A DNA stretch of 48,827 nt. Origin: Chloroflexota bacterium. GTDB lineage: Bacteria > Chloroflexota > Limnocylindria > P2-11E. Positions 16,505-29,906 of the stretch are shown in pieces. How positions within the stretch are numbered: position 1 is the stretch's first letter; each line of letters begins with the position of its first letter. Under the pieces are notes generated by a model that made no database searches, was not told where the DNA came from, and saw nothing but the letters and a program-made list of their open reading frames with translations. The position numbers were made by a program, and so were the translations under genes. Location of the stretch: contig JAJYLV010000009.1 of assembly GCA_021787445.1 (NCBI GenBank), forward strand, positions 1 to 48,827, given 5' to 3'.

Positions 16505-16534
16505 AAGGAGCGGGGTCTTGAGACCCCGCTCCTT
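16505..16534 (-). terminator. Perfect inverted-repeat terminator after citrate synthase
   Basis: A 14-bp arm at 16505-16518 pairs perfectly with 16521-16534 around a 2-nt centre. Read on the minus strand the stem is followed by CTCCTTTCTCTTGT, a pyrimidine- and T-rich tail, as expected for intrinsic termination of the malic enzyme-citrate synthase transcript. It lies 48 bp past the citrate synthase stop. Confidence 0.75.
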
Positions 16535-24411: not shown

Positions 24412-25802
24412 TGCCGGTCAAGCGCGCGGACAAGACGCCGATGCCCGTTCGGCTCCCCGAGGAGCGCGCGCACGACTTCGGCGAGGTGAACGAGGGCTAC
24501 GCGCTCGAGCGCGCGATGTTCGAGGCCGAGCGCTGCCTGCGCTGCCAGGACCCCGTCTGCGTCGAGGGCTGCCCGGTGAGGATCCCCATCTCGGACTTCA
24601 TCCACGAGGTCGCGGCCGGCGACCTGGTGGCGGCGGCGCGGATCCTGCGCACCGCGAACCCGCTGCCCGCGATCTGCGGCCGCGTGTGCCCGCAGGAGAC
24701 GCAGTGCGAGGAGCGCTGCGTCATGGGCGGCCGCTTCCGGCCCGTCGCGATCGGCCACCTCGAGCGATTCGTCGCCGACCAGGAGCGCGCCCGCGGGATC
24801 AGCACGACGGCGGAGCGGACGCACAGCGAGAAGGTCGCCGTCATCGGCGCGGGGCCGGCCGGGCTCGTGTGCGCGGGCGAGCTCGCGCGGATGGGCTACG
24901 GCGTGACGGTGTACGAGGGCCTCCACGCGCCCGGCGGGGTGCTGCGCTACGGCATCCCCGAGTTCCGCCTCCCGAAGGCGATCCTCGACCACGAGATCGC
25001 CGTGCTCCAGGCGATGGGCGTCGAGATCGTGTGCGACGTCATCGTCGGACGGACGCTGCCCCTCGACCGTCTCTTCGAGATGGGCTACGCGGCCGTATTC
25101 GTGGGGACGGGTGCCGGCCTGCCGCAGTTCCTCGGCATCCCCGGCGAGGACCTGAACGGCGTGATGTCGGCGAACGAATTCCTCACGCGCGTGAACCTCA
25201 TGAAGGGCTACACCTTCCCCGAGGCCGACACCCCGGTGAAGATCGGAAAGCGCGTCGCCGTCGTCGGAGCGGGGAACACCGCGATGGACGCCGTGCGCAC
25301 CGCGCTCCGACTGGGGGCCGAGGAGGCGACGATCGTCTACCGCCGCAGCGACAAGGAGATGACGGCCCGCGTGGAGGAGCACGAGCACGCGATACAAGAG
25401 GGCGTCGTCTTCGACTGGCTGACGAGCCCCATCGAGGTCGTCGGCGACGAGACGGGCTGGGTCACCGGGCTGCGCTGCCAGAAGATGCGGCTCGGCGAGC
25501 CCGACGCGTCGGGGCGCGCGCGCCCGGTCCCGATCCCCGGATCCGAGCACGTCATCCCCGTCGACACCGTCATCGTCGCCATCGGGACGAGCCCGAACCC
25601 GCTGCTCGTCCGCACGACGAAGGGTCTGCAGACCGACCGCCACGGCTGCCTCGTGGCGAACGAGGCGACGGGGCTCACGTCGAAGCCGCTCGTCTTCGCC
25701 GGCGGCGACGCCGTGACCGGGACGGCGACCGTCATCCTCGCGGCCGGCGCGGGCAAGCGCGCCGCGCACGCCATCGCCGAGGCCCTCAGCCCAGCGGCAT
25801 GA
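24411..25802 (+). CDS. NfnB/GltD-like FAD-dependent NAD(P) oxidoreductase
   Basis: 463 residues from ATG 24411. The N-terminal cysteine-rich domain has CLRCQDPVCVEGCPV and ICGRVCPQETQCEERC, which bind two 4Fe-4S clusters. It is followed by a dinucleotide-binding domain with VIGAGPAGLVCAGELARMGY, the PGGVLRYGIPEFRLPK block, and a second nucleotide-binding loop, VVGAGNTAMDAVRTALRLGA. The C-terminal ATG box-like segment is TVIVAIGTSPNP and the end FAGGDAVTGTATVILAAGAG binds FAD. This is the standard architecture of NfnB, homotetrameric glutamate synthase small subunit and PadH. As no glutamate synthase large subunit is near and NfnA lies next to it, an Nfn-like role is favoured. The stop overlaps the next start (ATGA, 25799-25802). 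Confidence 0.9.
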   Translation: MPVKRADKTPMPVRLPEERAHDFGEVNEGYALERAMFEAERCLRCQDPVCVEGCPVRIPISDFIHEVAAGDLVAAARILRTANPLPAICGRVCPQETQCEERCVMGGRFRPVAIGHLERFVADQERARGISTTAERTHSEKVAVIGAGPAGLVCAGELARMGYGVTVYEGLHAPGGVLRYGIPEFRLPKAILDHEIAVLQAMGVEIVCDVIVGRTLPLDRLFEMGYAAVFVGTGAGLPQFLGIPGEDLNGVMSANEFLTRVNLMKGYTFPEADTPVKIGKRVAVVGAGNTAMDAVRTALRLGAEEATIVYRRSDKEMTARVEEHEHAIQEGVVFDWLTSPIEVVGDETGWVTGLRCQKMRLGEPDASGRARPVPIPGSEHVIPVDTVIVAIGTSPNPLLVRTTKGLQTDRHGCLVANEATGLTSKPLVFAGGDAVTGTATVILAAGAGKRAAHAIAEALSPAA

Positions 25803-28486
25803 GCGCGCTCGCGTACCCCGCCGACGTCGTCCTCCGGGACGGCTCGACCGTACGCATCCGCTCCGCCGAGAGGCGCGACCGCGACGCGATCCTCGCGATG
25901 CTCCGCTCGCTCTCGGGCCGCTCGCGCGAGCTGCGCTTCTTCTCGCGCGCCACCGACCTCGCGGCGGAGGCGGACCGCGCCGTGGACTGCGACGGAACGT
26001 GCCGTGTCGGCCTCGTCGCCGTCACCGGCCTCGACTCGCGGATCGTCGCGCACGCGGGCTACTACGGGCGCGCCGGCGGGAGCGCCGAGGTCGCGTTCGC
26101 CGTCGCCGACGAGCTACAGGGCCACGGGATCGCGACGATCCTCCTCGGCCAGCTCTCCGAGATCGCCGAGCGCAACGCGGTCGGGCCGTTCGAGGCCCTC
26201 GTCGCTCCCGAGAACGCCCGGATGATCGAGGTCCTTCGCGAGAGCGGCCTCCCCGTCCGCACGCGCCCCGAGCCGGGCTGGATCCGCTTCGAGTTCCCGA
26301 CGTCCATCTCGGAGACGGCGATCGCGCGCTACGAGCAGCGCGAGGCGCTCGCCGCGCGCGCGGCGCTGGCGAGCTTCCTCGCGCCGAACGCGGTGGCGGT
26401 CATCGGCGCTTCGCGCGAGCGGGGGACGATCGGCGGCGCGATCCTCCACGGCCTCGTCGAGTACGGCTTCAGCGGCGCCGTCTACCCCGTGAATCCGAAG
26501 GCGTCCTCCGTCGGTTCCATCCGCGCCTACCCCTCGGTCCTCGACGTGCCGGGGCCGGTCGACCTCGCGGTCGTCGTCGTCCCGGCCGCCGTGGTCGCGC
26601 AGGTCGCTCGGGAGTGCGCGGAGAAGCACGTCCGGGCGCTCGTCATCATCTCGGCGGGCTTCTCCGAGGTCGGGGAGGCCGGTGTCGCGCGTCAGCGAGA
26701 GGTCCTCGAGATCTGCCGCGCCGCCGGCATGCGCGTGATCGGGCCGAACTGCATGGGGATCATGAATACCGCTCCCGCGGTGCGGCTGAACGCGACGTTC
26801 GCTCCGCTCACGCCGCCCGCCGGGCGGATCGGCTTCCTCACCCAGAGCGGCGCGCTCGGCATCGCGATCATCGACCACGCGGTCCAGCGCGACCTCGGCC
26901 TGTCCTCGTTCATCTCGGTCGGGAACAAGGCGGACATCTCGGGGAACGACGCGCTGCAGTACTGGGAGTCGGACCCGCGGACCGACATCATCCTTCTCTA
27001 CCTCGAGTCGTTCGGGAATCCGCGCAAGTTCGCGCGGATCACGCGCCGCCTCACACGGACCAAGCCGATCGTCGCGGTGAAGAGCGGGCGATCCGTCGCC
27101 GGATCGCGCGCGACCTCCTCGCACACGGGCGCGCTCGTCGCCACGAGCGACGTGACGGTCGACGCTCTCTTCCGCGACGCCGGCGTCATCCGCACCGACA
27201 CGCTCGCGGAGCTCTTCGACGTCGCGGAGCTGCTGGTCGATCAGCCCCTGCCGGGGGGGCGCGGGGTAGCGATCCTCACGAACGCGGGCGGACCGGCGAT
27301 CCTCTGCGCCGACGCGTGTGAGGCCCGCGGCCTGCGCGTTCCGGCGCTCTCGGCCGCGACGCAGGCCGAGCTGCGGAGCTTCCTCCCCGCCGACGCCGCC
27401 GTGTCCGGCCCGGTGGACATGATCGCGTCGGCGACGCCGGAGCAGTACGCCCGGGCGATCCACGCCGTCGCGTCGGACGGCGCCATCGACTCGCTCATCG
27501 TCCTCTTCACCCCGCCGCTCGTGACCCGCCCGGAGGAGGTCGCCGCGGCGATCCGCGACGCGGTCCGGACGCTCCCGCGGCGCATCCCCGTGCTCAGCGT
27601 CTTCCTCTCGGCGAAGGGTGTCCCCCGGGAGATGCGCGAGGACGGCGTCCGCATCCCCGCGTACACCTACCCCGAGGACGCCGCGCGCGCGCTCGCCCAC
27701 GTCGCGGCGTACGCAGAGCGCCGCGCGCGGCCGCAGGGCGCCGTCCCGCCGTTCGCGGAGGCTCGGCGCGATGCGGCGTCGAGCATCCTGGCGCGGGCGC
27801 TCGCGCGTGGCTCCGGCTGGCTCGAGCCCGACGAGGTGCGCGCGCTCTTCCTCTCCTGGCGGCTGCCTCTCGTGCGCACGGAGGTCGTGGCCACGGCGGA
27901 GGAGGCCGCGCGCGTCGGCGCCGCGATCGGCGCGCCGGTGGCGCTGAAGGCCGTCGCCGCGGGTGTCATCCACAAGACGGAGGCCGGCGCCGTGCGGCTC
28001 GGCGTCGCGCCCGCCGAGGTCGCCGCCGCGGCGGCCGAGATCGCCGAGCGCGTCGCGTCGGCGGGCTCCCGCCTCACGGGATTCGTCGTTCAGCCGATGG
28101 TGGCGAGCGGCGTCGAGATGCTCGTCGGCGTCGCGCACGACCCGCTCTTCGGCCCTGTCGTCGCGTGCGGCGCGGGCGGCACGGCGGTCGAGCTGCTCAA
28201 GGACGTGAAGGTGCACCTGACGCCGCTCACGGACCTCGACGCGTCGGAGATGATCCGCTCGCTCGCGACGTTCCCGCTCCTCGACGGCTACCGCGGGTCG
28301 GTAAAGACCGACGTGGCGGCGCTCGAGGAGGTCGTTCTGCGCATCGCCGCGATGGCCGACGAGCACCCGGAGATCGCCGAGCTCGACGCCAACCCCGTGA
28401 TCGTCTCGGCGTCAGGCGCGACGATCGTCGACGCGCGTGTACGCGTCGCCTCTCCCGTCGCGGTCAGGCCGCTCGCCGCGCGCTGA
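25799..28486 (+). CDS. GNAT-fused ADP-forming acyl-CoA synthetase / Pat-type acyltransferase
   Basis: 895 residues from ATG 25799. Domain order is: GNAT acetyltransferase (about 8-175, with the acetyl-CoA loop LQGHGIATILL); CoA-binding Rossmann domain (about 190-290, VAVIGASRERGTIGG); two succinyl-CoA-ligase-like domains (about 300-640), with SSHTGAL holding His442, the expected phosphohistidine position; and an ATP-grasp domain (about 665-895, with VALKAVAAGVIHKTEAGAV and FGPVVACGAGGTAVELLKD). The synthetase part could make ATP from acetyl-CoA and ADP. With intact GNAT it may instead, or also, be a Pat/PatZ-like lysine acetyltransferase. Known PatZ carries GNAT at the C-terminus, so the order here is the reverse. 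It closes the Por operon. Confidence 0.88.
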   Translation: MSALAYPADVVLRDGSTVRIRSAERRDRDAILAMLRSLSGRSRELRFFSRATDLAAEADRAVDCDGTCRVGLVAVTGLDSRIVAHAGYYGRAGGSAEVAFAVADELQGHGIATILLGQLSEIAERNAVGPFEALVAPENARMIEVLRESGLPVRTRPEPGWIRFEFPTSISETAIARYEQREALAARAALASFLAPNAVAVIGASRERGTIGGAILHGLVEYGFSGAVYPVNPKASSVGSIRAYPSVLDVPGPVDLAVVVVPAAVVAQVARECAEKHVRALVIISAGFSEVGEAGVARQREVLEICRAAGMRVIGPNCMGIMNTAPAVRLNATFAPLTPPAGRIGFLTQSGALGIAIIDHAVQRDLGLSSFISVGNKADISGNDALQYWESDPRTDIILLYLESFGNPRKFARITRRLTRTKPIVAVKSGRSVAGSRATSSHTGALVATSDVTVDALFRDAGVIRTDTLAELFDVAELLVDQPLPGGRGVAILTNAGGPAILCADACEARGLRVPALSAATQAELRSFLPADAAVSGPVDMIASATPEQYARAIHAVASDGAIDSLIVLFTPPLVTRPEEVAAAIRDAVRTLPRRIPVLSVFLSAKGVPREMREDGVRIPAYTYPEDAARALAHVAAYAERRARPQGAVPPFAEARRDAASSILARALARGSGWLEPDEVRALFLSWRLPLVRTEVVATAEEAARVGAAIGAPVALKAVAAGVIHKTEAGAVRLGVAPAEVAAAAAEIAERVASAGSRLTGFVVQPMVASGVEMLVGVAHDPLFGPVVACGAGGTAVELLKDVKVHLTPLTDLDASEMIRSLATFPLLDGYRGSVKTDVAALEEVVLRIAAMADEHPEIAELDANPVIVSASGATIVDARVRVASPVAVRPLAAR

Positions 28487-28493
28487 GGGCCCG

Positions 28494-28871
28494 CTACAGG
28501 GCGGTATCGAAAGCGTCGCCGCGCGGCCGGCGCCGGAGCACGACGCTGGGCCGGTGCTGTCCGCGAACGACACGATCGCGGACGAGCACGACCTCCGCCG
28601 CGCGGTGCGCACGCAGGAGCAGGGCCAGGAAGGAGGGGGTCGTTGCGTCGAAGTCGTACAGAACGACGTCGCAGTCGGCGACGAGGGGGCACGACCCCAG
28701 GCCCCGCAGCAGGACGCACTGGTCGGTCGGGCCCGAGCACGTCGCGACCGTCGTCCGCCCGTCCTCGACGACGCTCGACCAGTCGACGCGCCGCGTTTCC
28801 GAGGGGCTGACGACCAGCACTCTCCGCGTGCCGCCCGGCGCGGGCGTGACGGACATCGTGCCGATCGTCAT
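28494..28871 (-). CDS. Small cysteine-containing receiver-like protein, unknown function
   Basis: 125 residues from ATG 28871 (complement); ATG 28856 is also possible. The pattern of alternating strands and helices (RRVLVVSPSETRRVDWSSVV, then DVVLYDFD, then AAEVVLVRD) suggests a response-regulator-like or Rossmann fold. A cysteine pattern sits in the middle: C45, C52 and C61 in ATCSGPTDQC and LGSCPLVADCD with C67. The usual acidic pocket and phosphorylatable Asp of a true receiver are not convincing. Such short proteins with C-P-L and A-D-V-V-L-Y-D blocks occur in high-GC bacteria without known role. It converges on the acyl-CoA synthetase with a 7-bp gap and would be transcribed from the structured region at 28908-29042. 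Metal or redox sensing is speculation. Confidence 0.5.
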   Translation of the reverse strand: MTIGTMSVTPAPGGTRRVLVVSPSETRRVDWSSVVEDGRTTVATCSGPTDQCVLLRGLGSCPLVADCDVVLYDFDATTPSFLALLLRAHRAAEVVLVRDRVVRGQHRPSVVLRRRPRGDAFDTAL

Positions 28872-28907
28872 GTCAGGCGGCGATACCAGGTAGGGCCGAA
28901 CGTAACT

Positions 28908-29042
28908 CCAGGAGAGGCCAGTTTCCTCTCCCGGCAGAAATGCCTGGTGACTACGGTTCCCGCTGTACTCACGTCCATCCCCTCTGTTCCGGGAACGTGG
29001 GCCCGTCGGACCCGCCGCAGGAGCCGACGAGGCCCACGTTCC
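28908..29042 (+). ncRNA. Structured region upstream of SDR gene (candidate leader RNA)
   Basis: Three stems occur in order. GGAGAGG 28911-28917 pairs with CCTCTCC 28925-28931. GGCA and TGCC close a GAAA tetraloop (28934-28945). Both are enclosed by CCAGG 28908-28912 and CCTGG 28943-28947 as alternative partners. Further on, GGAACGTGGGCCCGTCGG 28992-29009 pairs with 29024-29042 over 18 bp with a single bulged A and a 14-nt loop. The GNRA loop favours RNA made from the plus strand, leading into the SDR gene at 29154. No known riboswitch consensus was recognised. A terminator or a protein-binding dyad for either strand is the simpler alternative. Confidence 0.4.
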
Positions 29043-29153
29043 ATTTCTACCCACAGGTCCCCCCTTCGCCGGTAGGGTCGCTCCGCTCGGCCTGGGCCGC
29101 TCGGCACTGTCCCGGCCTTGGTCGCCGCGTGAGCGTGGCGTCGGAGGTGTCCC

Positions 29154-29906
29154 ATGAGCGGTGAGATCGTTCTCGTGACCGGAGCGGCGTCCGGGATCGG
29201 CCGTGCCTGTGCCGTGGCGTTCGCGAACGCCGGCGCGAAGGCGGTCGTGCTCGCGGACCTCGACGAGGCCGGGGGCCACGAGACCGCGCGCGAGGTCGCG
29301 CGGGCCGGCGCGCAGGCGGAGTTCGTGCCGACGGACGTCAGCCGTCCCGGCGACGTGGAGCGGCTCATCCAGCGCGTCGTCGAGCTGTACGGCAGGCTCG
29401 ATGTCGCGGTGAACAACGCCGGCATCGAGGGACGGTCGGCGCGTCTGGTCGACCAGACGGAGGCGGACTGGGACCGCGTCCTCGACGTCAACGCCAAGGG
29501 CGTCTTCCTCTGCATGCGCGCCGAGCTCCCGCAGATGGTCCGCCAGAGCTCGGGGGCGATCGTGAACATGGCCTCGATCGCCGGGATCGTCGGCTTCACG
29601 TGGGCGGCGCCGTACGTCGCGAGCAAGCACGCCATCATCGGTCTCACGAAGACGGCCGCGATCGAGGTCTCGAAGAAGGGCGTCCGCGTCAACGCGGTCG
29701 CACCGGGGATCATCAAGACGCCGATGATCGACCGCGTCACGAAGGGTGACCCGCAGGCCGAAGCGGGGATGGTCGAGCTCGAGCCCGTCGGGCGTCTCGG
29801 GACGCCGGACGAGATCGCGAACGCGGTCCTCTGGCTGGCCTCCGATCGGGCGTGCTTCGTGACGGGCGAGACGCTCGTCGTCGACGGAGGCTACGTCGCG
29901 CGCTAG
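29154..29906 (+). CDS. Short-chain dehydrogenase/reductase (classical SDR)
   Basis: 250 residues from ATG 29154, with GGAGGTG upstream. All classical SDR marks are present: nucleotide-binding VTGAASGIGRACAVAFA (8-24), the adenine-side DVS acidic block, NNAGIEG (about 84-90), catalytic Ser in NMASIAGIVG, and the YVASK block with Tyr and Lys spaced four apart. The C-terminal LASDRACFVTGETLVVDGGYV matches the FabG-like subgroup end. The Asp after the second strand (VLADLDEAGG) predicts a preference for NAD(H). The substrate is not evident; names like 3-oxoacyl-ACP reductase or glucose dehydrogenase would be guesses. It is preceded by a 282-bp gap with strong hairpins. Confidence 0.92.
   Translation: MSGEIVLVTGAASGIGRACAVAFANAGAKAVVLADLDEAGGHETAREVARAGAQAEFVPTDVSRPGDVERLIQRVVELYGRLDVAVNNAGIEGRSARLVDQTEADWDRVLDVNAKGVFLCMRAELPQMVRQSSGAIVNMASIAGIVGFTWAAPYVASKHAIIGLTKTAAIEVSKKGVRVNAVAPGIIKTPMIDRVTKGDPQAEAGMVELEPVGRLGTPDEIANAVLWLASDRACFVTGETLVVDGGYVAR

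Follow-up and report, generated by a model that had tools for sequence, protein, structure and literature searches.

What does the inverted repeat between the two divergent genes of this Chloroflexota locus do, and which of the two genes does it serve? The window, by which we mean the whole stretch of DNA that was analysed, is 48,827 nt long and is contig C11 of a 2.5-Mb genome that is 95% complete. The gap in question is flanked by the gene of a 120-aa protein on the minus strand (28494–28856) and by an SDR oxidoreductase gene on the plus strand (29154–29906). A preliminary description had proposed that a multi-hairpin element, made of two small stems and a long bulged stem, fills most of a 282-bp gap and may be a new leader RNA for the SDR gene or a bidirectional regulatory structure. 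The figure of 282 bp is right if the minus-strand gene is counted from a second in-frame ATG upstream, at 28871, but the start that is conserved in all three genomes with the locus is the ATG at 28856. On its other side, just beyond the 3' end of the 120-aa gene, lies the end of a gene (25640–28486) in which an acetyltransferase (GNAT) is fused to an acyl-CoA synthetase-type protein with CoA-binding, ligase and ATP-grasp parts.

The long hairpin, at 28992–29042, is present much as first described. Its outer arms, 28992–29003 and 29031–29042, are each 12 nt long and 100% complementary, and the stem continues inward past one unpaired base by pairing of 29004–29009 with 29024–29029, giving 18 bp with one bulge. 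When read on the minus strand, the hairpin consists of a 12-bp stem, a 1-nt bulge, a 6-bp stem, a 3-bp inner stem with one bulged base, and the loop CUGCGGC. Compared with 200 dinucleotide shuffles, the folding of a 55-nt hairpin segment has a z of -5.54 on the minus strand and -6.56 on the plus strand, with no shuffle as good, and the hairpins of two relatives fold comparably (z -5.06 in genome G004 and -5.21 in genome G001). Is such a stem unusual? Plain perfect 12-bp stems are not rare, being found at five places in the window, against 0 to 8 records in first-order Markov controls. The fuller form, a perfect 12-bp stem that is followed, past no more than one bulged base, by five or more further pairs, has a single example in the window and none in 30 Markov controls, a count to be read with the fact that this stem form was chosen after the hairpin had been seen. 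Elsewhere in the window, at 16505–16534, two perfectly inverted 14-nt arms (AAGGAGCGGGGTCT/AGACCCCGCTCCTT) enclose a loop of 2 nt.

Do the two small stems at 28908–28947 belong to the same element? Their letters are indeed there: CCAGG at 28908–28912 and CCTGG at 28943–28947, a small stem with a GGAGAGG/CCTCTCC core at 28908–28934, and a GGCA-GAAA-TGCC stem on the plus strand at 28933–28944. Two C's are claimed both by the GAAA stem and by the pairing of CCAGG with CCTGG, and further pairings compete with the small stems as well. Within a piece of 70 nt, pair probabilities are 0.86–0.92 for the GAAA stem and 0.37–0.43 for three of the five CCAGG/CCTGG pairs, but in a 161-nt context these values fall to 0.32–0.34 and to at most 0.003, respectively. 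Neither relative has the GAAA stem in the matching stretch, and the GGAGAGG/CCTCTCC stem is kept in G004 and lost in G001. The small stems and the GAAA loop are real as letters, but the GAAA stem folds weakly in context and is not conserved, and the element had been drawn too wide. From sequence comparison, the conserved unit is better taken as the 73 nt that run from 29042 to 28970 on the minus strand, that is, the 51-nt hairpin and a 22-nt 3' flank.

How strongly is this unit kept? The gap sequence is matched in three of the five genomes of the genus that were searched, the window genome itself (G000), G004 and G001, and these three form the comparison set. The hairpin is identical to that of the window at 50 of 51 positions in G004 and at 47 of 51 in G001, and the nearly invariant flank (28970–28991; minus-strand reading CGGAACAGAGGGGATGGACGTG) at 22 of 22 and 21 of 22; the inner loop positions are conserved at 11 of 14. 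Taken as a whole, the 73-nt element agrees between the window and G001 at 68 of 73 positions (93%). For the remaining spacer between element and minus-strand gene the count is 53 of 113 (82 of 113 with G004), and for the 144 nt upstream it is 43 of 144, an ungapped figure that understates similarity where indels occur. The 120-aa gene is identical at 216 of 294 positions between the window and G001 (codon positions 0.85, 0.88 and 0.48) and at 252 of 294 between the window and G004 (0.98, 0.97 and 0.62), and the best 73-nt stretch within it reaches 60 of 73 with G001, against 68 for the element. Among the stretches compared at the locus between these two genomes, the element is the best kept of its length. 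One might think that a recent transfer of element and gene together would account for this, but such a transfer fails to explain the conservation because the gene of the same unit has diverged. Strong constraint is implied where a noncoding block keeps 93% identity and the adjoining gene agrees at 48% of its third codon positions. The conserved block extends past the hairpin solely toward the minus-strand gene.

To which neighbour, then, does the element belong? In G004 both neighbours are the same as in the window. In G001 the element again lies upstream of the 120-aa gene, with a response regulator gene beyond that gene and a multicopper oxidase gene on the other side of the element, and no homologue of the SDR gene is found at E 1e-60 in this genome, which is 90% complete. 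Because the neighbours differ in G001, element and 120-aa gene behave as a unit, and since G001 has the element without an SDR homologue, we assign the element to the minus-strand gene. In all three genomes 135 nt separate the hairpin from the ATG (28857–28991 in the window); this spacer is diverged beyond its first 22 nt. A search of 177 genomes of the class (E 1e-5, with the stricter filters used above 40 genomes) gives strong element matches in three, all of one genus, and only in those three does a homologue of the 120-aa gene reach 72% identity; three further genomes of the 177 have relatives of the gene at E 1e-12 with identities of 33–42%. The two other members of the genus, G002 and G003 (70% and 88% complete), give no match to the 120-aa protein at E 0.001 and one weak match each to the element model. 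When 400 genomes sampled from the phylum are searched at the DNA level, the same three are returned. The element probably serves in the control of the minus-strand gene (28494–28856).

The idea of a new leader RNA for the SDR gene had in its favor that the hairpin lies 111 bp before the SDR ATG and that the plus strand folds too (z -6.56). It is weakened by G001, which keeps the element without an SDR homologue. The spacing is constant on the side of the minus-strand gene, whereas on the SDR side there are large indels even between the window and G004, and little is conserved between the window and G001. In addition, the window and G004 have an inner U-G pair, described below, that has no plus-strand counterpart. 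We regard a leader serving the SDR gene as highly improbable, and a bidirectional role of the element, which had also been proposed, may be entertained.

Is the element kept as RNA or as DNA? In the alignment of the three sequences, 18 of the 21 stem pairs are invariant, one is compensatory, one has a one-sided (wobble) change, and one, at the bulge, is broken in G001. On the minus strand the inner stem is CUC/GGG in G004 and the window and CCU/AGG in G001, a difference of C-G against U-A at one pair and of U-G against C-G at another. These changes give a hint in favor of the minus strand as the RNA, if the comparison of inner pairs is a guide. Covariance across relatives had been set beforehand as the test, with a lack of compensatory changes to count against an RNA, and the outcome comes close to such a lack: there is one compensatory pair, one wobble change and one broken pair, and the covariation score, from three sequences, is not significant, being reached by 156 of 500 shuffles. 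A set of three sequences that holds a single compensatory pair is no proof of an RNA structure.

The invariance of 18 of the 21 stem pairs, where an RNA would allow compensatory changes, is the main point for the leader's chief rival, a protein-binding site in the DNA; constraint acting on the letters of the DNA accounts for the stem no less well than an RNA fold. Here the inverted arms GGAACGTGGG/CCCACGTTCC, together with the adjoining GGAAC (forming GTTCCCGGAAC), would serve as half-sites for a regulator that acts on the promoter of the minus-strand gene, downstream of the site, and perhaps on both divergent genes. The junction GTTCCCGGAAC is itself a palindrome, and the divergent arrangement of the genes suits an operator. 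But most of the 73 nt are conserved, the 11 of 14 inner loop positions included, and this goes beyond half-sites. G001 shows no conservation on the SDR side. With up to three mismatches, the junction motif is found in the genome 50 times forward and 59 times in reverse, against 46 and 46 for a backward control, and within one mismatch this site is the sole occurrence genome-wide; a regulator with one site is possible. We hold a DNA site to be a possible reading, and on balance a doubtful one.

Could the block be conserved because it is translated? It begins at an ATG in all three genomes (29044, minus strand in the window), and the frame from this ATG is open across it. The frame of the 120-aa gene is likewise open through the block in all three, with 51 + 135 nt in frame with its ATG, so that the block might encode a small protein of its own or extend the 120-aa protein at its N terminus; in the remaining minus-strand frame GC3 is 0.88, near that of the neighboring genes. 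Open frames are, on the other hand, common in DNA of 72% GC, and the GC3 of the small ORF (0.68) and of the extension (0.56) falls below the 0.91–0.94 of three neighboring genes, from 25 codons only. The six differing positions are third positions in 3, 2 and 1 cases in the three frames (two frames counted by hand). For the third frame this leaves five of six differences at first or second positions, and that frame meets a stop within the flank in the window and G004, absent in G001. The three genomes have no recognizable ribosome-binding site in common ahead of this ATG. A coding block is accordingly very improbable.

Does the element have relatives elsewhere? There is no second full copy in the 2.5-Mb genome; the best other hit covers 34 query positions, and a partial hit in contig C74 lies inside an open frame that we read by eye as homoserine acetyltransferase-like. 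A dispersed repeat of REP or MITE-like type was considered and rejected, the window itself being the sole full-length match in the 95% complete assembly. The preliminary description had also allowed that the stem might be found after many genes as a simple terminator; this is contradicted by the absence of any other full copy and by a scan of 28700–29300, with loops of 3–8 allowed, which gives no terminator-like site. The hairpin is stable and GC-rich and it stands in a gap, as a terminator or a dispersed hairpin repeat might, but the genes are divergent, so that neither neighbor ends here, and the hairpin holds the same position before the gene in three species. Such an origin is the least probable of those weighed. 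The statement that no known riboswitch is matched was borne out: no Rfam family reaches its gathering score in the window, and the five matches in 28850–29170 at E up to 10 are all far below gathering scores (best mir-4857, 22.8 of 70 bits). Among the paper titles listed by a literature search, none names this element.

Weaker matches are met further afield. A DNA search of 28 genomes of the family gives partial matches of 24–35 nt in G012, G013 and G020, and a second one in G004 (E 0.001–0.005). A model of the element, R1, run on 29 genomes, gives weak matches (20–29 bits) in seven additional genomes, of which two belong to the genus of the window, and weak second places in G001 and G004. None of the weak matches of either search lies on a contig bearing the 120-aa gene or a paralogue. 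The best of the weak model matches outside the three loci, L049 (28.5 bits), has no broken pair, a loop that is partly alike, and a z of -2.45; an alpha-2-macroglobulin MG10-domain gene and a PEP carboxylase gene converge on it from either side, and in our judgement it is a hairpin at gene ends rather than a relative of the element. Another, L056, overlaps long open frames. Phages give no match, and plasmids two weak ones (E 0.02 and 0.06). A pattern scan finds nothing in viral contigs and nine stretches in genome contigs; two of these are the contigs of G004 and G001, and seven have the anchored arms in common and different cores. We note that long hairpins are seen in Acidobacteriales (L062, 707–773), Coriobacteriia (L061, 2803–2856) and Sphingopyxis (L058, 2178–2220); they share the outer arm GGAACGTGGGC/GCCCACGTTCC, which the search pattern demanded, their cores differ, and L062 scores 28.4 bits with model R1.

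A block of about 73 nt that is very highly conserved beside diverged flanks is also what one might expect of an independent small RNA gene. Such a gene would be read from the minus strand, would carry the hairpin close to its 5' end and would precede the 120-aa gene by coincidence. The 135-nt spacing and the co-occurrence with the 120-aa gene in three of three genomes speak against it, there is no terminator-like site and no Rfam match at gathering score, and we think it improbable. The spacer by itself shows no unusual structure: 28857–28993 alone has a z of -0.37, with 71 of 200 shuffles as good. A DosR-like operator near 28891–28906 was suggested by a motif, seen by eye in loci L037 and L028, that resembles a DosR box. 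It was dropped, because the genome has the motif 24 and 17 times and the backward control of the motif about as often (21 and 20).

The reading that we favor is a cis-acting structured 5' leader of the mRNA of the minus-strand gene, to which we give a probability of roughly 45%. A leader is favored because most of the loop and the 3' tail are conserved, the spacing is equal, and the pair changes point to the minus strand. We infer that the element is transcribed, that the minus-strand RNA is its active form, and that it takes part in regulation; a scan for promoters of the sigma-70 type found none. The hairpin would lie at or near the 5' end of the mRNA of the 120-aa gene. Hairpin and G-rich tail might be bound by a protein or a small molecule, or might protect the transcript, and such binding or protection would set the expression of a small, cysteine-bearing, receiver-like protein.

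What is this protein? The window member has three cysteines in the spacing C-x6-C-x8-C, and it aligns with 15 other family members with W26, C40, C47, C56, Y67 and L80 invariant in all 16. The window protein matches no Pfam model, none of the 16 members matches an NCBIfam model, and a sequence search of solved structures gives one hit only, at E 0.93. The predicted structure (pLDDT 84.6) has its best VIA-align match in RcsB (Z 7.6, 84 residues, 2.7 Å), with many receivers among the 50 rows, though a Z under 8 may reflect no more than a common arrangement. Foldseek with the same model gives nothing at E 0.001, the lowest E being 0.013 for a KaiC domain and 0.037 for the best receiver. The 120-aa protein may be said to resemble receiver domains at middling scores in its predicted fold. 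The element was not found in 13 paralogue loci (best 11.4 bits, E 0.14). At nine of these 13 (L026, L027, L029 and L031–L036, picked by eye) the receiver-like ORF follows an apparent DoxD-like gene; two loci were scanned for DoxD, and one matched, below the curated cut-off. At the junction that immediately precedes the receiver-like ORF, each of the nine has a short G-rich hairpin of the GAGAGGGGCG..CGCYCCTC type. Of its eight inner pairs, seven form in nine of nine loci and one in seven of nine, with A-T/G-C exchanges at two pairs.

What would a leader mean for this lineage? In this uncultured lineage the element marks a probable point of control, and it shifts the focus from the SDR gene to the cysteine-bearing receiver-like family. 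A bolder proposal is that the element represents a new class of regulatory leader RNA, confined to this lineage and almost frozen in sequence, which governs the three-cysteine receiver-like family, the protein itself possibly binding the hairpin in a redox-dependent feedback loop. Taken in full, we think this proposal unlikely. If the element is a leader RNA it is one more orphan motif, and three species are too few for naming a class.

Several known systems invite comparison. The orphan structured leader RNAs of comparative genomics are alike in that a noncoding block before one gene is conserved beyond its surroundings and combines a stable hairpin with a conserved single-stranded part; the present element differs in being known from three sequences of one genus, with almost no covariation and no Rfam match at gathering score. 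Intrinsic terminators share the GC-rich hairpin, but here there is no terminator-like site and the element is not at a gene end. Dyad-symmetric operators sit in divergent promoters, and the inverted repeat between divergent genes is of that kind; the arms of the element, however, are 27 bp apart, most of the middle is conserved, and the junction motif is near background elsewhere. The 5'-terminal hairpins of the ompA type stabilise bacterial mRNAs, and the long stable stem upstream of a gene recalls them. In the present case the letters of the stem and the 22-nt tail are conserved as well, beyond the need of mere stability.
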